Shown piece by piece: positions 23,794 to 34,375 of a DNA stretch of 64,000 nt. Position numbers and translations under genes: made by a program. The first letter of the stretch is position 1, and the number at the start of each line of letters is the position of its first letter. The notes below the pieces were generated by a model that made no database searches, had not been told where the DNA came from, and was given only the letters and a program-made list of their open reading frames with translations. Origin of the DNA: Albibacterium bauzanense (GTDB lineage: Bacteria; Bacteroidota; Bacteroidia; Sphingobacteriales; Sphingobacteriaceae); contig NZ_SMGO01000001.1 in the NCBI RefSeq assembly GCF_004339765.1, positions 1,178,001-1,242,000 on the forward strand. Reading direction: 5' to 3'.

Positions 23794-25575
23794 ATGGTTA
23801 AAAGCATAAATAACAATCTAACACAGATCCTCAAAATTACAGATCAGTGTTTATTGTATTTAAGTTTAGGCTGTTCAGTCGCCATTCTATTTAACTTAGG
23901 CTATAATACCAATTTAGAGGCCATTCTATTAGTTGATCATTTCCTTCGCTATACCTTTTTCCTTATCGGAATTTTACATATAGCGAGGCTGGTTCTTATC
24001 CTTTTCTTTGTCAAAAAACGTAAGTTAATCCAATATGGAGAGATCTTTCTTTCTCTTTATTTCTTGTTCATCATGCTTTCCAATGTATTCGGATTATCAG
24101 CTGGCCACTTACATTTCTTACAAGCAGAATGGATCTATTTTGGTGTCTTTGCTACTTTATTGATCGCGGTATCCAAAGTCAGCCTTTTCTTCGATGACTT
24201 TTATTTCAATCCAACCATACTCTTTGTCATAAGCTTTCTTATGCTTATTCTCATTGGCACATTACTACTGGTCTTACCTAATTCAACAACAGACGGAAAC
24301 CTTAGCTTTGTAAATGCGCTCTTCACTGCTACCAGTGCAGTATGTGTTACCGGACTAACTGTTTTTGATGTCTCGGTCAAATTCACACAATTCGGACAAA
24401 CGGTTATACTGGTTTTAATTCAACTAGGAGGATTGGGTATCATGACCTTTACAGGATTCTTTGGCTATTTCTTTACGGGTGGTTTTTCATATAAAAACCA
24501 ATTGATGTATACAGAATTATTAAGCGAAGATAAGATCGGGTCCGTTATGAAAACCTTATCGAAGATTGTATTTATTACTTTGTTATTTGAAGCAATCGGT
24601 GCCCTATTTATATTCTTTAATCTTCCTTCCAATGTATTCAGCTCATATGGAGAAAGAGTTTATTTTTCAGTCTTTCATGCCATTTCCGCTTTCTGTAATG
24701 CTGGCTTCTCAACCATACAAGACGGACTTTATAATCCTCTTCTTCGTTTCAATTATAACATCCACTTAATCATAGCTGTATTAATCATATTTGGCGGATT
24801 AGGTTTTAATATAATGGCAAATACCTACGCCTATTTTAAAAGGCGAATAACAGGGCTTTATCGAAAAATCAGATACAATGAACCTGTTAAGTTCTTAGCA
24901 CAGGAGCTCACATTTACATCAAGAATAATCCTTTATACAACCGCTTTTTTACTAACCGGGGCCACCATTCTATTCTTCATCCTTGAATATAATAACATCC
25001 TTCAGGAACATAAAACATTATGGGGGAAAATTGTAACCTCCTTTTTTCTAAGTGCAACACCGCGTTCAGCAGGTTTTTCAACAGTTAATATACAAGGGCT
25101 TGCTTCACCATCTATCCTGCTTCTCTTTTTCCTTATGTGGGTGGGTGCTTCTCCAGGATCAAACGGAGGAGGAATAAAAACTACGACCTTCGCCATTTCA
25201 TTTTTAAATATATTTAGCATTGCCAGAGGTAAAGAAAACCTGGAACTTTTTAAACGCCGAATAACAAAAGATACCAGCATACGAGCACTGGCAGTTATTA
25301 TTCTATCTTTTATCATTATCGGAACTGTTCTATTTTTACTATCCATTACCGATAGTGAAAAAGGTTTCAGAGCCTTAGCTTTTGAAAGTCTTTCTGCTTT
25401 TGCAATTAGTGGTTTAAGTCTGGGTATAACTCCTGAGCTCTCTGAAAGTGGCAAGATCATTCTGGTATTTGCTATGTTTATCGGGCGAATAGGAGCATTA
25501 ACATTATTAATTGCATTTGTTAAAAACACCAAAATAAAAGCTTATCGTTATCCTTCTGATACGGTACAGCTATAA
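23794..25575 (+). CDS. trkH: TrkH/KtrB-type potassium uptake channel subunit
   Basis: A 593-residue membrane protein that forms the potassium-conducting pore. After an N-terminal stretch of about four extra transmembrane helices (residues 15-135), four M1-P-M2 repeats follow. Their pore-loop segments are recognisable: TSAVCVTGL (near 188), SAFCNAGFST (near 298), SATPRSAGFST (near 420) and SAFAISGLSLG (near 535). It works with the cytosolic nucleotide-binding regulator encoded 24 bp downstream. Whether it is sodium-coupled (KtrB-like) or proton-coupled (TrkH-like) cannot be told from sequence alone; KtrB is equally possible as a name. Confidence 0.92.
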   Translation: MVKSINNNLTQILKITDQCLLYLSLGCSVAILFNLGYNTNLEAILLVDHFLRYTFFLIGILHIARLVLILFFVKKRKLIQYGEIFLSLYFLFIMLSNVFGLSAGHLHFLQAEWIYFGVFATLLIAVSKVSLFFDDFYFNPTILFVISFLMLILIGTLLLVLPNSTTDGNLSFVNALFTATSAVCVTGLTVFDVSVKFTQFGQTVILVLIQLGGLGIMTFTGFFGYFFTGGFSYKNQLMYTELLSEDKIGSVMKTLSKIVFITLLFEAIGALFIFFNLPSNVFSSYGERVYFSVFHAISAFCNAGFSTIQDGLYNPLLRFNYNIHLIIAVLIIFGGLGFNIMANTYAYFKRRITGLYRKIRYNEPVKFLAQELTFTSRIILYTTAFLLTGATILFFILEYNNILQEHKTLWGKIVTSFFLSATPRSAGFSTVNIQGLASPSILLLFFLMWVGASPGSNGGGIKTTTFAISFLNIFSIARGKENLELFKRRITKDTSIRALAVIILSFIIIGTVLFLLSITDSEKGFRALAFESLSAFAISGLSLGITPELSESGKIILVFAMFIGRIGALTLLIAFVKNTKIKAYRYPSDTVQL

Positions 25576-25599
25576 TTTATAATTAAATCTATTTTAGAT

Positions 25600-26277
25600 A
25601 TGAAATTCATCGTTTTTGGACTAGGACATTTTGGAAAAGCCCTCGCAATCCGTTTAACCGAATTAGGTCATGAGGTTATTGGCATAGATAACGATATGAA
25701 GAAAGTAGAGAAATTTAAAGATAAGATCACTCATACAGTCTGTTTAAATGCTACCGACCGGGATGCTGTAGGTTCTCTTCCTTTAAAAGATGCCAATGCG
25801 GTAATAGTAGCTATCGGTGAAGATGAAGCTGCCTCCTTAATGACCACAGCCGTTCTCAAACAATTCGATATCAAACGAATCCTTACACGGGCAGTTTCTG
25901 ACCTGCAAAAAACTGTTTTAGAGGCAATGAAAATCGACGAATTTATTATGCCCGAAGAAGAATCTGCGGAGCGTTTAGCCGTCCGATTAGTCAATCTGAA
26001 TGTAGTAGACTCCTTTAAAATATCGGATAATTACAGCATTATTGAAGCCAAAGTGCCAGAAAAATATGTGGGAAAAACATTGGCTGAGGCCAACTTCACC
26101 AATGAATATAAGGTAATCGTTCTCACCACCATTAAAACAAATGAAGTAGAATCTAAAGGGATTAAAAAGACTATAAAGGAAGCTTCCGGCATTGCTACAT
26201 CAGGGACCAGGATGGAAGCAGACGACTTACTGGTTATATTTGGAGAAATGGAAAACATCAATAAATTAATAGATTAA
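25600..26277 (+). CDS. trkA: TrkA/KtrA-type potassium uptake regulatory protein
   Basis: A 225-residue cytosolic regulator with an N-terminal RCK/TrkA-N domain (FGLGHFGKALAIRL, residues 6-19, a GxGxxG nucleotide-binding loop) and a C-terminal TrkA-C domain (about 140-225). The short single-RCK length fits KtrA better than E. coli TrkA, which has two copies. It gates the pore protein encoded immediately upstream, with which it forms an operon. Regulation is probably by ATP/ADP or cyclic di-AMP, known for the family but not visible here. Confidence 0.92.
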   Translation: MKFIVFGLGHFGKALAIRLTELGHEVIGIDNDMKKVEKFKDKITHTVCLNATDRDAVGSLPLKDANAVIVAIGEDEAASLMTTAVLKQFDIKRILTRAVSDLQKTVLEAMKIDEFIMPEEESAERLAVRLVNLNVVDSFKISDNYSIIEAKVPEKYVGKTLAEANFTNEYKVIVLTTIKTNEVESKGIKKTIKEASGIATSGTRMEADDLLVIFGEMENINKLID

Positions 26278-26293
26278 GAAAAAAACACCCTGT

Positions 26294-26325
26294 TTTATTG
26301 CTAATAAAGCAATAAACATTGCTTT
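26294..26325 (+). other. two overlapping, mutually exclusive hairpins between trkA and nhaA
   Basis: Hairpin A pairs 26294-26302 with 26308-26316 (9 bp). Hairpin B pairs 26306-26313 with 26318-26325 (8 bp, 4-nt loop). They share 26308-26313, so only one can form at a time. They lie 16-48 bp after the trkA stop. The downstream sequence is AT-rich without a compact T run, so termination is possible but unproven. Confidence 0.45.
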
Positions 26326-26332
26326 ATATTTA

Positions 26333-26340
26333 TATTTTTG
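26333..26340 (+). promoter_or_regulatory. -7 element immediately before nhaA
   Basis: TATTTTTG, an exact TAnnTTTG match, ends only 4 bp before the nhaA ATG. If used, the transcript would start at or very near the start codon. No -33 TTG at 19 bp is present. Confidence 0.35.
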
Positions 26341-26344
26341 CGAC

Positions 26345-27541
26345 ATGACGAATCCTATTAACCTGAATAGCTTTAGAAATTTCCTGAAATCTGAAACTTC
26401 TGGCGGAATAATTTTAATCTTTTGTGTAATAGTTTCCTTAATCATTGCCAACTCTCCTTTAGCTACCGGATTTAATGGACTGCTGGATAAAATTATTGGA
26501 TTTAAAACAGATAACGTCGATTTAGAATACAGTGTTGCATCCTGGATCAATGATGGATTAATGGCCATCTTCTTCCTTTTGGTAGGCCTGGAAATCAAGC
26601 GTGAATTAGTTGAAGGTGAATTATCTTCTATTAAACAAGCTTCCCTTCCGATACTGGCAGCATTGGGTGGAGTTATCATTCCTGCTTTAATCTATCACTC
26701 ATTTAATATTGGCTTAGAAACCGATGCTGGCTGGGCAATTCCGATGGCTACAGATATAGCCTTTGCTGTAGCAATCATCACCATGTTGGGGAAAAACGTG
26801 CCCGTATCCCTGAAAATATTTTTAGCGGCTCTGGCCATTGTTGATGATCTGATAGCAATTTTAGTAATCGCTACTTTCTATTCATCATCCTTAGAATACA
26901 CCTACTTATTATATGCCGGAGGATTTGTTTTACTACTTATTATCTTCAATCGTCTCGGAGTAAAAAACCTTGCTTTCTACCTTATTCCGGGTGCTTTTAT
27001 CTGGTACTTTATCCATCATTCAGGAATTCACGCTACCATTGCCGGAGTTATTACAGCTTTTACTTTACCAACCACTCCGGATGCTAAAGAGTCTCCCTTA
27101 GAAAAACTAGAGCACCTTTTAATTAACCCGGTAAACTTTATCATCATTCCTATCTTTGCTTTAGCCAACACCAACATCACCTTTGAAAGCGGAATGGTTG
27201 AAGGACTGTTCACTCCGCTTGGATACGGTATAATTTTAGGCCTATTAATTGGTAAGCCTGTCGGTATATTTATAGCATCCTGGATAGCAGTCAAACTGGG
27301 TATTAGTAAAATGCCCGATCAGGCACGATGGGTCCATGTATTGGGTGTTGGAATGATAGCTGGTATCGGTTTTACCATGTCTATTTTCATTTCCCTTCTT
27401 TCTTTTTCAAACTCAACTCACTTAATGTCTGAAGCAAAGTTCTCCATCCTAATAGGGTCACTCCTATCTGCTATATTGGGCTCTTTACTGTTAATTATAG
27501 TAGCTAAAAAAGGAAAAAAGATAGAGGAAACTACTAATTAG
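26345..27541 (+). CDS. nhaA: Na+/H+ antiporter NhaA
   Basis: A 398-residue inner-membrane antiporter that exchanges sodium (or lithium) for protons in pH and salt homeostasis. The two essential adjacent aspartates are present in AIVDDLIAIL (Asp167, Asp168), and the further conserved aspartate is in ATDIAFA (Asp137). About 11-12 transmembrane helices are predicted, and the length is typical (380-400). It follows the potassium uptake genes, making a cation-homeostasis cluster (K+ uptake plus Na+ export). The 3' end overlaps the convergent acyl-CoA synthetase gene by 8 bp. Confidence 0.96.
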   Translation: MTNPINLNSFRNFLKSETSGGIILIFCVIVSLIIANSPLATGFNGLLDKIIGFKTDNVDLEYSVASWINDGLMAIFFLLVGLEIKRELVEGELSSIKQASLPILAALGGVIIPALIYHSFNIGLETDAGWAIPMATDIAFAVAIITMLGKNVPVSLKIFLAALAIVDDLIAILVIATFYSSSLEYTYLLYAGGFVLLLIIFNRLGVKNLAFYLIPGAFIWYFIHHSGIHATIAGVITAFTLPTTPDAKESPLEKLEHLLINPVNFIIIPIFALANTNITFESGMVEGLFTPLGYGIILGLLIGKPVGIFIASWIAVKLGISKMPDQARWVHVLGVGMIAGIGFTMSIFISLLSFSNSTHLMSEAKFSILIGSLLSAILGSLLLIIVAKKGKKIEETTN

Positions 27542-30111: not shown

Positions 30112-32571
30112 ATGAAATATTTTCTACTTATACTGTCACTATTTTATTCATTTGGTGCGTTCTCTCAACAGATCCGCCCTTCAAATTCAGACGATATTTA
30201 TAAGGAGATTAATATGCTGAAAAAGCTGCCCAGAGTACTTTATTTAGCAGCACATCCAGACGATGAGAATACAGGACTACTGGCTTGGCTGGTAAATCAA
30301 CAACATATCAATACTGCTTATTTATCTCTTACAAGAGGAGATGGCGGACAAAATTTAATCGGTAGCGAGCAAGGCCCTGCATTAGGCCTAATCAGAACTT
30401 ATGAGTTGCTGGAAGCACGGAAAGTTGACGGTGCTAAACAATTCTTTTCAACAGCTATCGACTTTGGCTTTTCCAAAAACCCAGACGATACCTTCAAACA
30501 ATGGGATGCTGATAAAATTACGGCAAACGTAGTATGGGTAATCCGAAACTTCCGCCCCGATATCATTATTACCCGGTTTCCACCAAGCGCGGCAGCTGGT
30601 CATGGCCAGCACTGGTCTTCAGCAATCATTGCTGAAGAAGCCTTTAAAGCTGCAGCCGATAAAAACCGATATCCTGAACAGCTTACAAAGGTTGATGTTT
30701 GGCAAGCAAAAAGATTAGTAGGAAACACGTTCCGCTTCGGAAGTGAAAACACCACAAGCGAAGATCAGTTTAAAGTTACCATCGGACAATACGATCCGGG
30801 CTTAGGAATGGGCTATGGCGAACTTGCCGGATTAAGCAGAAGTATGCACCAAAGCCAGGGAGCAGGAACAGCATCGGTTGCTGGTATTCGTACTGAATAC
30901 TTCACACCTGTACTGGGAGACCCAATCAAAACATCACTATTCGATGGTATTAAATCGAGCTGGACAGACATACAAAAACCAGCGATCGATAATGCGCTTG
31001 ATCAACTGATTGCTCAATATGATTTCAGAAGGCCTGATCGAAGCGTTCCGCAACTTCTGGCACTCAGAAAACTAATCCGATCAATCGATGATAAAAAGCT
31101 AAAAGAAGAAAAGCTACTCGCGCTTGATCAAATTATACTCAGTGCTTCTGGATTCATGGCAGAAATGGTAACCAAAGTACCTGAGGCTGTAGCCGGTGAT
31201 AAACTAGCTTTCCAACTGAACGTAATAAGCAGATCAGAAAGCCCGGTATCCATCCAAAAAATACAGTATCCTCTTCATGCAGAACAGCTAAATAAAAAAC
31301 TATTTCCTGACTCCTTAACTAATTTCAGCTACGAAGTACAGATTCCGGAAAACAGCGAAATCTCTGAACCCTACTGGTTAAAACACCCTTTTAAGAGCGC
31401 AGCACAATACGATGTTCAGATCGATTCGCTTGTCGGCTTACCACTGGCTCCATCAGCTCTAAACGCAAAATTATCACTGCTGATTGGTGATGAAGCATTC
31501 GAAGTGAACGTACCTTTCTCTTACAAAAAATTAGATCCTATTAAAGGTGACCTGGTAGAACCCCTGCGAATTATACCAGCCGTAAACATTAAATTCTCAC
31601 AACCATTATTCTTCCAAAGTGCAAACCCTAATGTAGAAGTTATCCTTCATTCTGAGAAAGACATTCCAAATGCAAGTCTGACTATCAAAAGCGGCAATCA
31701 GCTTCTATCTACTGTAAACAACATTAATTTAAGAGCTAATTCTGATACAACCATTCATATCCGAATCAATCCAACTGAAATAAACAACAGATCGGCTACA
31801 ACTAATCCTTCCCTGGAAGCTGCGCTGCAGGTTGGAAATAAATCTTATACAAAAGACAAACACATTATACGCTATAACCACATACCAACTCTACAATACT
31901 TTACCTCGGCAAGTACACTGCTTGTTAATGGCGATTTACAGGTAAAGGCTCATAAGGTAGGTTATATTCTAGGAGCAGGAGACATCATTCCTGATTTCTT
32001 ACGCATGGCAGGAATCGAAGTTACTATCCTACAAGAAAGCGACTTCGCGAATGTCAGCAAACTAATAGGCTTCGATGCAATTATAGCAGGTATCCGGGCT
32101 ATAAACGTAGAAAAAAGAATGCCGCAATGGATGCCTGTCCTGAATCAATACATTCAGAACGGCGGAACGGTAATTATGCAGTTCAATACCCTGCAAGACA
32201 TGTCTACCACCAACATCGGCCCCTATCCTTTCACTATAGGAAGAAACCGGGTAACCGAAGAGAATTCGCCGGTTGAGTTTCTAGCTCCGGCAAGTCCGCT
32301 TTTAAATACCCCAAACAAGATCACTCAAACAGATTTTCAGGGATGGATTCAAGAAAGAGGCCTCTATTTCTTAAACACCTGGGATGAACATTATACTCCT
32401 CTATTCAAAATGAACGATACAGGCGAAGAGCCTCTTGAAGGAGGAACCATTTATACACAATACGGAAAAGGATACTTTATATATACTCCTTTGGCTTTTT
32501 TCAGACAACTAACCATTGGTAACAAGGGTGCAACCAAATTATTCTTTAACATGCTTTCAATCGGAAAATGA
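30112..32571 (+). CDS. secreted PIG-L/LmbE-family deacetylase, long form
   Basis: An 819-residue exported protein (signal peptide about 1-19). The N-terminal PIG-L domain (about 38-300) has the zinc-binding AHPDDE (His48, Asp50, Asp51, Glu52) and the third ligand region AGHGQHW (His164, His167). These enzymes hydrolyse N-acetyl groups from GlcNAc-type sugars or related amides. The remaining 500 residues hold beta-rich domains and a C-terminal region resembling a glutamine-amidotransferase-like/ThuA-type fold without obvious catalytic residues (DAIIAGIRAINVEKRMPQW, GTVIMQFNTL). The stop codon overlaps the start of the next gene (TGATG). It is the first gene of a three-gene coupled unit with a microprotein and a sodium symporter. 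Confidence 0.85.
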   Translation: MKYFLLILSLFYSFGAFSQQIRPSNSDDIYKEINMLKKLPRVLYLAAHPDDENTGLLAWLVNQQHINTAYLSLTRGDGGQNLIGSEQGPALGLIRTYELLEARKVDGAKQFFSTAIDFGFSKNPDDTFKQWDADKITANVVWVIRNFRPDIIITRFPPSAAAGHGQHWSSAIIAEEAFKAAADKNRYPEQLTKVDVWQAKRLVGNTFRFGSENTTSEDQFKVTIGQYDPGLGMGYGELAGLSRSMHQSQGAGTASVAGIRTEYFTPVLGDPIKTSLFDGIKSSWTDIQKPAIDNALDQLIAQYDFRRPDRSVPQLLALRKLIRSIDDKKLKEEKLLALDQIILSASGFMAEMVTKVPEAVAGDKLAFQLNVISRSESPVSIQKIQYPLHAEQLNKKLFPDSLTNFSYEVQIPENSEISEPYWLKHPFKSAAQYDVQIDSLVGLPLAPSALNAKLSLLIGDEAFEVNVPFSYKKLDPIKGDLVEPLRIIPAVNIKFSQPLFFQSANPNVEVILHSEKDIPNASLTIKSGNQLLSTVNNINLRANSDTTIHIRINPTEINNRSATTNPSLEAALQVGNKSYTKDKHIIRYNHIPTLQYFTSASTLLVNGDLQVKAHKVGYILGAGDIIPDFLRMAGIEVTILQESDFANVSKLIGFDAIIAGIRAINVEKRMPQWMPVLNQYIQNGGTVIMQFNTLQDMSTTNIGPYPFTIGRNRVTEENSPVEFLAPASPLLNTPNKITQTDFQGWIQERGLYFLNTWDEHYTPLFKMNDTGEEPLEGGTIYTQYGKGYFIYTPLAFFRQLTIGNKGATKLFFNMLSIGK

Positions 32572-32678
32572 TGAAAAAGAAAGATTTTGAGAGCTGGAAT
32601 TTATGGTACCTTCTATTATTTATAGCATTGGTTGCACAAATTATATTGTATTATCTTTTTACTAAATATTGGGAATGA
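32571..32678 (+). CDS. 35-residue single-pass membrane microprotein
   Basis: A 35-residue open frame with charged N-terminus (MKKKDFESW), one hydrophobic helix (about residues 11-30) and a short polar tail ending KYWE. Its ATG overlaps the stop of the PIG-L gene by one base, and its stop TGA overlaps the ATG of the symporter gene, so all three are likely translationally coupled. The layout recalls the tiny subunits encoded before sodium:solute symporters in other bacteria (for example DUF4212/DUF3311/YhdT-type proteins), but this one is shorter and I cannot assign it to a family. It may be an assembly or stability partner of the symporter. The overlap pattern makes it very likely real. Confidence 0.7.
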   Translation: MKKKDFESWNLWYLLLFIALVAQIILYYLFTKYWE

Positions 32679-34375
32679 GCAAGTTCGACTGGGCGGTTCT
32701 GTGTATAACATTACTTGCGACCATTGTATACGGAATATTCAAAGGACGCGGACAAAAGAATGCACACTCCTATCTTTTAGCAAATCAACAAATGCCCTGG
32801 TATGTTGTCATGCTCGGCATTATGGCAACTCAGGCAAGTGCTATTACCTTTCTTTCGGCACCCGGACAAGCCTATACCGATGGGATGCGCTTCGTACAAT
32901 ATTATTTTGGCGTACCCCTGGCCATGATCGTCATTTCCATCACTTTTATACCCATATTTCAACGGTTAAAAGTTTATACAGCTTATGAATTCCTTGAACA
33001 GCGATTCGATCAAAAAACACGTGTTCTTACTTCTTTCTTTTTCCTTCTTTCCAGAGGGCTTTCAACCGGAATAAGTATCTACGCACCTAGTATTATTCTA
33101 TCAACCATTCTTGACTGGAATATTTATTTAACCAATATCCTTACAGGCGGACTGTTGCTTATTTATACTTATACAGGAGGTGCTAAAGCAGTTGCACATA
33201 CCCAGAAGCTACAGTTTCTGATCATATTAGGAACCATGGCTTTCGCCGGATACCTGTTGATTCAAAACCTCCCGGGAGGAGTATCCTTTAGTGATGCCTT
33301 GTTTATCGCCGGAAAATCAGGAAAGCTCAATGTTATTACAACAGAATTCGATTTAAACGATCGATACAACATTTGGAGTGGAGTCATTGGAGGTTTCTTC
33401 CTTGCTCTTTCCTACTTCGGTACCGATCAAAGTCAGGTAGGACGTTATATATCGGCAAAAAATACCAGGACAGGAAGAATCGGATTACTCTTAAACGGCT
33501 TGGTTAAAATCCCTTTACAGTTTAGCATTCTATTGATAGGAGCACTCTTATTCGCATTCTTTGCTTTAAAACCAGCACCTGTTTATTTCAATGAGCGCTC
33601 ATTCAATCTATTAGAAAACAACTATCCTCAAATTGCTTCCGACTTTACCGCTGAGCATAATATATTGCAGGATAAACAAATAGCACTTTCCAATCAGCTA
33701 TTAGAACAGCGCGATAATGGCTCAAATGCTATTGACAATACCGTTCAAGAATACAAATTGAACCAGCAAAAGATCAAAGAGTTACACGGTCAGGTTGAGA
33801 CTACCATCAATGAAAAGAATATCAGTATTGAGAAAACGGATACTAACTATATTTTCCTCTATTTTGTTCAGAACATCCTGCCAACAGGCATGATCGGGCT
33901 ACTCTTTGCAGTTATTTTTATGGCATCCTGGGGCTCTATTGCAGCAGCTTTAAGCTCTTTGGCAACCTCTTCCTACAAAGACATTCAACAAAGCTTTTAC
34001 AAAGGAGAACATGACGATAAAAGGCAATTAATTTGCAGCCGCCTGCATACCTTGGGCTGGACAATTTTCTCTATTGGAGTAGCCATGTTTGCCACCCAGA
34101 TGGGATCATTGATTGAGGCTGTTAACATTCTCGGCTCCCTCTTTTACGGACCTATATTAGGGATATTTTTAGTGGCCTTCTACTTTAAGAAGGTCGAAGG
34201 CCCTAATGTATTTGTTGCAGCTATTTTAGCCGAAATAACAGTAATCCTTGTTTACAGCTTAGATATTATTTCTTTCTTGTGGCTCAACGTAATTGGTGCT
34301 GCAGCCGTATATTTCTTCTGTATTATAGGGTTAATCATCAAAAGGATTTACTCAACCCGGCCCCATACCTCGTAA
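32675..34375 (+). CDS. sodium:solute symporter (SSS family)
   Basis: A 566-residue membrane protein of the SSS/SLC5 family with about 13-15 transmembrane helices. Conserved segments include AITFLSAPGQAYTDGMRF (near residue 52), FLALSYFGTDQSQVGRYIS (near 245), and ASWGSIAAALSSLATSSYKD (near 415), which corresponds to the sodium-site helix 8. A soluble insert of about 70 residues (near 315-380) is predicted to be helical. The ATG at 32675 is chosen over a TTG six bases upstream because it overlaps the microprotein stop as ATGA. It probably imports a product released by the PIG-L enzyme, perhaps an amino sugar or sialic-acid-like compound, but this is inferred from context only. It overlaps the convergent gene by 28 bp. 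Confidence 0.9.
   Translation: MSKFDWAVLCITLLATIVYGIFKGRGQKNAHSYLLANQQMPWYVVMLGIMATQASAITFLSAPGQAYTDGMRFVQYYFGVPLAMIVISITFIPIFQRLKVYTAYEFLEQRFDQKTRVLTSFFFLLSRGLSTGISIYAPSIILSTILDWNIYLTNILTGGLLLIYTYTGGAKAVAHTQKLQFLIILGTMAFAGYLLIQNLPGGVSFSDALFIAGKSGKLNVITTEFDLNDRYNIWSGVIGGFFLALSYFGTDQSQVGRYISAKNTRTGRIGLLLNGLVKIPLQFSILLIGALLFAFFALKPAPVYFNERSFNLLENNYPQIASDFTAEHNILQDKQIALSNQLLEQRDNGSNAIDNTVQEYKLNQQKIKELHGQVETTINEKNISIEKTDTNYIFLYFVQNILPTGMIGLLFAVIFMASWGSIAAALSSLATSSYKDIQQSFYKGEHDDKRQLICSRLHTLGWTIFSIGVAMFATQMGSLIEAVNILGSLFYGPILGIFLVAFYFKKVEGPNVFVAAILAEITVILVYSLDIISFLWLNVIGAAAVYFFCIIGLIIKRIYSTRPHTS

Follow-up and report, generated by a model that had tools for sequence, protein, structure and literature searches.

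Between a PIG-L family gene and the gene of a sodium solute symporter (SSS), a 64,000-nucleotide stretch of the Albibacterium bauzanense genome (contig NZ_SMGO01000001.1, positions 1,178,001 to 1,242,000; the window, whose own numbering is used throughout) carries a 35-codon reading frame for a microprotein with a single transmembrane (TM) helix (MKKKDFESWNLWYLLLFIALVAQIILYYLFTKYWE). The frame is a real protein-coding gene, conserved and under selection; it is tied to the symporter gene directly after it, and its residues co-vary with a groove between TM2 and TM7 of that symporter. The microprotein is, in our judgement, probably a dedicated single-helix small subunit of the symporter, which would dock at TM2 and TM7 and serve folding, stability or pairing. 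A sequence-only reading of the same DNA had guessed at a previously unnamed symporter subunit, and conservation, association with the symporter and co-variation support this guess as the most likely interpretation; of its wider picture, a conserved protein and a likely subunit stand, and a three-part machine that includes the PIG-L enzyme is not established. If the microprotein is a subunit, symporters of this type expressed alone for biochemistry may be incomplete.

Conservation and selection of the microprotein gene

All three genes lie on the plus strand, the PIG-L gene with 819 codons (30112–32571), the microprotein gene (32571–32678) and the symporter gene with 566 codons (32675–34375). 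These frames and both overlaps described earlier were confirmed from the window sequence, with the PIG-L stop and the microprotein start sharing TGATG at 32569–32573, and the microprotein stop and the symporter start sharing ATGA at 32675–32678. Since a second in-frame ATG directly precedes the assigned start (ATGATG, 32568–32573), translation may begin at 32568 and yield 36 residues (MMKKK...) instead of 35. The only hydrophobic stretch, recognized by eye, forms the predicted TM helix at about residues 14–30 (32610–32660); homologues have a median length of 39 amino acids and likewise one TM helix. In the local AT-rich DNA (26% GC), 35 successive codons remain free of stops by chance with a probability of about 3%, so that the frame in a single genome is weak evidence and its conservation in relatives decides.

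For this purpose 34 named loci were added to the symporter genome samples. Of 459 loci, L001–L004 (PIG-L matches), L193–L207 (loci found with the microprotein as query) and 14 for which a longer stretch was available were discarded, and the window took the place of L005; the remaining 426 loci gave 409 distinct symporter DNAs. A homologous open reading frame (ORF) stands in the same place, directly 5′ of the symporter, in 368 of the 409 (E < 1e-4, with E-values that refer to the upstream ORFs of these loci and a profile that had been iterated on the same set). The conservation in relatives on which the sequence-only reading had made its case depend was therefore found. All 41 loci without a match were counted as lacking the microprotein, although 11 of them have a similar ORF by eye (L158–L160, L162, L163, L165, L171, L277, L279, L286, L448) and another, L240, offers no more than 92 bases of upstream DNA. 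The overlap with the symporter start is common but not invariant: it amounts to 4 bases in 238 of the 368 loci, followed in frequency by a stop 3 bases (40 loci) or 1 base (23 loci) before the start.

Selection, another check that had been proposed, acts on the amino acid sequence. In 35 independent close pairs, compared over the last 30 codons, the ratio of nonsynonymous to synonymous differences per site (pN/pS) was 0.207, with 186, 87 and 404 differences at codon positions 1, 2 and 3, whereas the two shifted frames of the same pairs gave 1.04 and 1.69; neutral simulations (n = 300) had a mean of 0.79 and a range of 0.62–1.00. M1, W9 and Y13 are invariant in a 45-member alignment. Records of Chryseobacterium, Neolewinella, Dawidia, Parachryseolinea and Chitinophagaceae are among the sources that carry the microprotein, and it is accordingly described here as a protein of Bacteroidota. 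In five loci of a more distant family, f44 (L161, L166, L168, L169, L170), the C-terminal end of the microprotein reads FN.P or YN.P, and a PIG-L tail was not found upstream.

No Pfam family matched the microprotein of the window at E ≤ 10, Pfam and NCBIfam scans of the 45 members returned scattered weak matches in one to three members each and no common family, and a profile search of PDB chains gave two chance matches only and no link to solved structures. In the open-licence literature that was searched, represented mostly by titles and abstract openings, no publication was recognized as describing the family. The kind of protein, a small partner of an SSS transporter, is already known; no description of the microprotein family itself was found in these searches.

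Association with the symporter

The conserved unit is the microprotein together with the symporter. In a sample of 60 related genomes, all 34 microprotein matches at E ≤ 1e-5 adjoin the symporter; the microprotein is present in 34 of the 37 genomes with a symporter (lacking in G023, G044 and G046, while G037 has two symporter matches and a single microprotein), and the profile search found none in the 23 genomes without one, the best E-value there being 0.0073. A PIG-L tail, in turn, lies upstream in 286 of 365 microprotein–symporter pairs, and of the 79 pairs without it, 44 have at least 1400 bases of upstream DNA. Among these 44 are Neolewinella loci with 6 kb and f44 loci with 3.5 kb of upstream DNA; no PIG-L tail was found in the 13 Neolewinella- or Lewinella-type loci checked or in the five f44 loci. 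A large gene 5′ of the symporter in Neolewinella had been considered as a divergent PIG-L gene and was rejected; that of L073 encodes an SNF2-type helicase. Because the microprotein persists without PIG-L and all its strong matches adjoin the symporter, it belongs to the symporter, and PIG-L is a frequent companion.

Relatives of the symporter occur in 37 of the 60 related genomes (its own included), in 144 of 394 genomes of the phylum and in 227 of 396 of the class; in five families they reach 184 of 199 (sampled at about one genome per genus), 62 of 70, 24 of 32, 52 of 60 and 25 of 25. As the samples overlap and the E cut-offs differ (1e-60 to 1e-120), these counts are not additive. A transporter this widespread is accompanied by a small gene that matches no Pfam or NCBIfam family.

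Other small frames occur at the same place or beside it. In four loci (L062, L063, L065, L067) a different, glycine-rich small ORF replaces the microprotein and also overlaps the symporter by 4 bases. In ten others (L061, L066, L093, L099, L101, L103, L186, L187, L190, L191) a second small membrane protein of 56–71 amino acids, glycine-rich and likely with two helices, is encoded between PIG-L and the microprotein; it resembles the one directly 5′ of the symporter in the four loci just named, and neither of two examples scanned scored above a Pfam cut-off.

The symporter and the predicted docking site

The product of 32675–34375 is an SSS/SLC5 symporter by score and fold, with sodium-coupled uptake as its predicted function. 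It scores 208.4 bits with TIGR00813, the SSS superfamily model (cut-off 184), and SSF was the only domain found in the Pfam scan. The AlphaFold2 (AF2) model has a mean predicted local distance difference test (pLDDT) score of 77.5 and 13 predicted TM helices, numbered TM0–TM12; over residues 1–557 it matches the sialic acid transporter SiaT (5nva) end to end (VIA-align: Z 38.6, root-mean-square deviation (rmsd) 2.6, 462 aligned). Whereas the whole fold is shared with SiaT and other solved SSS/SLC5 structures, the symporter here has, between its TM7 and its TM8, a helical hairpin some 75 residues long (residues 307–380, 33593–33814; AF2 model, periplasmic by the assumed topology). Stop-to-stop frames of 669–824 amino acids in L175 and in genomes G640, G1027, G1032 and G1042 suggest extended or fused forms of the symporter.

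Co-variation between microprotein and symporter was followed by mean-field coupling analysis at growing depth, with 149, 273 and finally 365 pairs, the last being what remained of the 368 microproteins once symporters shorter than 480 amino acids or with stops had been dropped. Symporter residues 301–387 were excluded from the full-alphabet runs at 273 and 365 pairs, from the stripe test and from the PIG-L control. Leading couplings of both full-alphabet runs include F30–L218, F30–V220, T31–V220, F17–L82, L16–I85, T31–R72 and V21–I233 (microprotein residue first), F30–L218 being the strongest at 365 pairs (z 10.3). Most of the strongest couplings at 365 pairs point to a site formed by TM2 (residues 71–98, 32885–32968; couplings 31–72, 17–82 and 16–85), the TM5–TM6 loop, periplasmic by the assumed SSS topology (residues 199–232, 33269–33370; couplings 30–218, 30–220, 31–219 and 31–220 with the microprotein C-terminus), and TM7 (residues 264–298, 33464–33568; couplings 30–290, 12–272 and 19–276). 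The site comprises 21% of the columns, and at 365 pairs it takes 9 of the top 10 couplings and, when the list is extended to the top 20, 30 and 50, 12, 17 and 20 of them, whereas six random re-pairings placed 0–4 of the top 10 there and reached maximum z-values of 4.4–6.2. The couplings to TM2 and to the loop emerged at 273 pairs, before the paper on CbrA discussed below was found; the segments were fixed from that paper after these couplings had been seen, and TM7 appeared only with the added sequences.

In their geometry, the couplings fit a helix antiparallel to TM2 and parallel to TM7. Eight TM2 pairs are in the top 30; six of them have position sums between 99 and 105, as for an antiparallel helix, with 25–85 and 29–85 as misfits, and all four TM7 pairs have differences of 260, 260, 257 and 253, as for a parallel one. 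In a ranking of 26 possible stripes, TM2 antiparallel came first (4.46) and TM7 parallel second (3.86), against maxima of 3.10 and 2.60 for these two stripes in 18 nulls. Stripes on TM12, tried as another contact, were no higher than in shuffles, and this candidate was rejected. At three positions a contingency can be read residue by residue: F30 occurs together with L218 and with A290 or V290, I30 or L30 with V290 and M218, which is compatible with size matching, although clade history could yield the same pattern. As a control, PIG-L tail and microprotein, cut to 28 columns apiece, were each coupled to the symporter over one common set of 286 loci; 2, 5 and 8 of the top 10, 20 and 30 couplings of the PIG-L tail fell in the site, compared with 7, 12 and 14 for the microprotein. 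When the sequences were halved by clade, half A placed 6 of its top 10 couplings in the site (p = 0.009).

Taken together, co-variation suggests that the microprotein helix lies between TM2 and TM7 of the symporter with its C-terminus under the TM5–6 loop. From this geometry and the N-terminal lysines it can be rationalized that the microprotein would insert with its N-terminus inside and its C-terminus outside, so that its helix might occupy the TM2/TM7 groove in the bundle (scaffold) domain and its aromatic C-terminal end be tucked beneath the periplasmic loop. The microprotein is made just before the symporter, and presumably in step with it, since stop and start codon overlap. Its most likely role would be to aid the folding, stability or pairing of the 13-helix protein, in the way that MAP17 serves SGLT2, and not to take part in substrate binding.

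Comparison with known small partners

Two small partners of SLC5 proteins, CbrX and MAP17, offer the closest likenesses. According to a 2026 preprint on Pseudomonas (PMC13022988), CbrX is a hairpin peptide of about 58 residues with two helices and both ends inside, its gene overlaps cbrA, and it binds CbrA on the SLC5 domain, where it packs on TM3 and TM8 beneath the TM6/7 loop. CbrA has 13 TMs, with helix breaks in TM2 and TM7. By our own equation, the CbrA elements TM3, TM8 and TM6/7 loop correspond to TM2, TM7 and the TM5–6 loop of the present TM0–TM12 model, which would make the CbrX site the equivalent of the co-variation site, supported by the couplings even though one clade half stays below significance. 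Common to both systems are a short ORF 5′ of and overlapping an SLC5 gene and a membrane peptide as its product. In contrast, the microprotein has 35 residues and one helix, not a two-helix hairpin, and belongs to another phylum, and while CbrA is a transporter fused to STAC and a histidine kinase, the partner here is a plain symporter of 566 amino acids.

MAP17 (PDZK1IP1), as described in PMC10803289, is a single helix on TM13 of SGLT2 that stays in place relative to the bundle domain. The likeness lies in a single-TM auxiliary protein of an SLC5 transporter, with single helix and strict association observed here and binding presumed. The TM13 to which MAP17 binds has no counterpart in the symporter, which aligns to SGLT2 residues from about 20 to 552 (the alignments stop at 548–552) and ends after TM12. 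MAP17 is also the larger protein. Neither of the two chance matches in the PDB chains was MAP17, in a copy whose content of MAP17 chains was unchecked. Given these likenesses and differences, the microprotein is said to work like CbrX and MAP17 without being filed in either family.

Further two-helix membrane proteins of about 60–100 amino acids, DUF4212, DUF485 (YjcH), DUF3311 and DUF997 (YhdT), are encoded beside SSS genes. An analogy with three of them, DUF4212, DUF3311 and YhdT, had been drawn from the sequence; it holds in so far as the microprotein is probably a small SSS partner and fails at the level of family, since none of the four gave a Pfam match to the microprotein at E ≤ 10. They are also absent among the matches listed for the 45 members (25 of 34 families, E ≤ 1; the filters drop most weak matches). 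A DUF3311 gene adjoins mctP (PMC9100948), and a search of a review (PMC7918813) for accessory, auxiliary and subunit terms gave no result.

The agreement with CbrX and the comparison with MAP17 raise a testable general question, namely whether small helper helices dock at one common site of SSS/SLC5 transporters, and what role this site has. One answer, which we hold only tentatively, would be a single accessory-helix site on the bundle domain, in the TM2/TM7 groove under the TM5–6 loop, that has come to be occupied by distinct small proteins, the microprotein, CbrX, perhaps the DUF partners, and in the SGLTs by the built-in TM13 with MAP17; the microprotein would then provide in trans a helix missing from 13-TM symporters, as an integral part of a transporter that is common in several families of the phylum.

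Weighing the evidence

A number of observations weigh against a symporter subunit docked in this way. Symporters without the microprotein exist (L041–L043 and L185, where PIG-L directly abuts the symporter), and the microprotein is therefore not indispensable; Pseudomonas cells without CbrX also grow on histidine like the wild type (PMC13022988). The effective depth of the alignment is low (about 242 effective sequences at 365 pairs). The best of 26 stripes in the 18 nulls averaged 3.64 and reached 3.96, which TM2 exceeds and TM7 does not, so that TM2 stands out on its own and TM7 less; a parallel reading of TM2 reaches 3.77 as well. Clade half B placed 3 of its top 10 (p = 0.36) and 7 of its top 30 couplings (p = 0.47) in the site, yet 31–219, 31–220 and 31–72 recur. 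In the reduced-alphabet run (273 pairs) the couplings were mostly scattered, with V21–I233 on top (0.882, compared with 0.737 for the best shuffle) and the rest near the shuffles, and the first run at 149 pairs, which recurred only in part, also ranked residues of TM11 and TM12 high. The columns of the PIG-L control are less variable than those of the microprotein (mean entropy 1.34 versus 1.65 at the 273-pair stage). Finally, the hypergeometric p-values assume independent pairs and random re-pairing loses relatedness, which inflates such numbers; a within-cluster shuffle at 273 pairs was nearly a free shuffle, as one cluster held 247 of the 273 sequences.

These points have to be set against two other roles for the reading frame. 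Its translation might do nothing but deliver ribosomes to the symporter start, as shown for cbrX and cbrA, the peptide itself being inert: CbrA synthesis in Pseudomonas putida requires that cbrX be translated, and a peptide with a different sequence also serves (PMC6591292), and CbrX is dispensable for growth on histidine, as noted above. The frequent 4-base overlap agrees with such a role, whereas purifying selection on the amino acids, the invariant W and Y, the varying distance to the symporter start and the co-variation with one symporter surface speak against it, and we consider an inert leader improbable. Translational coupling may well operate in addition to a subunit role. It is still less credible, indeed very improbable, that the microprotein serves the PIG-L protein, for instance as a membrane anchor or as a link between enzyme and symporter. 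The PIG-L tail upstream in most pairs and the short distance from the PIG-L stop (the microprotein, or the symporter where the former is lacking, starts within 30 nucleotides of it in 64 of 93 loci) would fit; but the microprotein stays with the symporter where PIG-L is not adjacent, every strong match in the 60 genomes adjoins the symporter, and its couplings to the PIG-L tail, the only part of PIG-L covered, are weak (top z 4.4). A subunit of the symporter thus remains the preferred reading of the microprotein.

The PIG-L protein and neighbouring genes

The 819-residue protein is a member of the PIG-L family by score (PF02585, 58 bits; cut-off 28.2), motifs and fold, and zinc-dependent N-deacetylase activity is predicted for it. 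The AF2 model (pLDDT 82.6) shows, after an N-terminus that resembles a signal peptide by eye, a deacetylase domain (residues 37–283, 30220–30960; MshB, 4ewl_A: Z 21.5, rmsd 2.9, 229 aligned by VIA-align), a beta-rich middle and a C-terminal GATase1/ThuA-like domain (residues 612–819, 31945–32568; 2gk3_E: Z 16.1, rmsd 3.0, 188 aligned; ThuA-like 1t0b_A: Z 14.3, rmsd 3.5, 191 aligned), whose stretch 31891–32568 gave no Pfam match. The AHPDDEN and H164-G165-x-H167 motifs are invariant in 16 of 16 aligned PIG-L proteins, and we take them to be the zinc ligands of the family. The earlier description as a secreted enzyme with all zinc ligands is thus borne out for the motifs and the MshB fold, the zinc-binding role itself being predicted from the family. 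Fold and signature motif of the N-terminal domain are common to MshB and N,N′-diacetylchitobiose deacetylase; in contrast to MshB, the protein here is 819 residues long, carries the two additional regions and is apparently exported, as judged by eye.

That the three genes form one deacetylate-then-import machine, as the sequence-only reading had proposed, is not established, with a PIG-L tail in 286 of the 365 pairs only. In such a system the secreted PIG-L protein would strip an N-acetylated sugar, glycoconjugate or amide of an acyl group, and a product would enter the cell through the symporter–microprotein complex. PIG-L is indeed often adjacent (in 94 of 131 loci of at least 6 kb, and likewise in the counts given above), its domain has the fold of MshB and diacetylchitobiose deacetylase, and the closest fold to the symporter is that of SiaT. 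PIG-L is, however, not constant beside the microprotein and symporter, SSS folds are common to transporters of many substrates, and besides symporter and PIG-L only the DUF2911 family recurs widely. The three-part system as a whole is rather doubtful to us, even if it is plausible, as a guess from neighbourhood and fold, that an N-acyl compound is first deacetylated in the periplasm and then imported; the probable substrates of PIG-L are N-acylated compounds of the periplasm, and the symporter may take up one of the products.

The DUF2911 protein (two members scanned; for example L064:1872–2741 on the minus and L059:7732–8247 on the plus strand) lies near the symporter in 60 of the 131 loci of at least 6 kb, 49 times on the opposite strand. 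In Neolewinella-type loci (L073:7746–8855 and nine others), a protein of metallo-beta-lactamase fold (PF12706; one member scanned) follows closely 3′ of the symporter, and no PIG-L was found upstream. At two places in genome G344 (L117 and L155) the PIG-L gene upstream of the symporter is split over several frames, and the second symporter copy has an internal stop, either as decaying duplicates or by assembly error. In the window itself, plus-strand ORFs at 23794–27541 resemble, by eye, a TrkH-type potassium transporter, a TrkA-like subunit and an NhaA antiporter.

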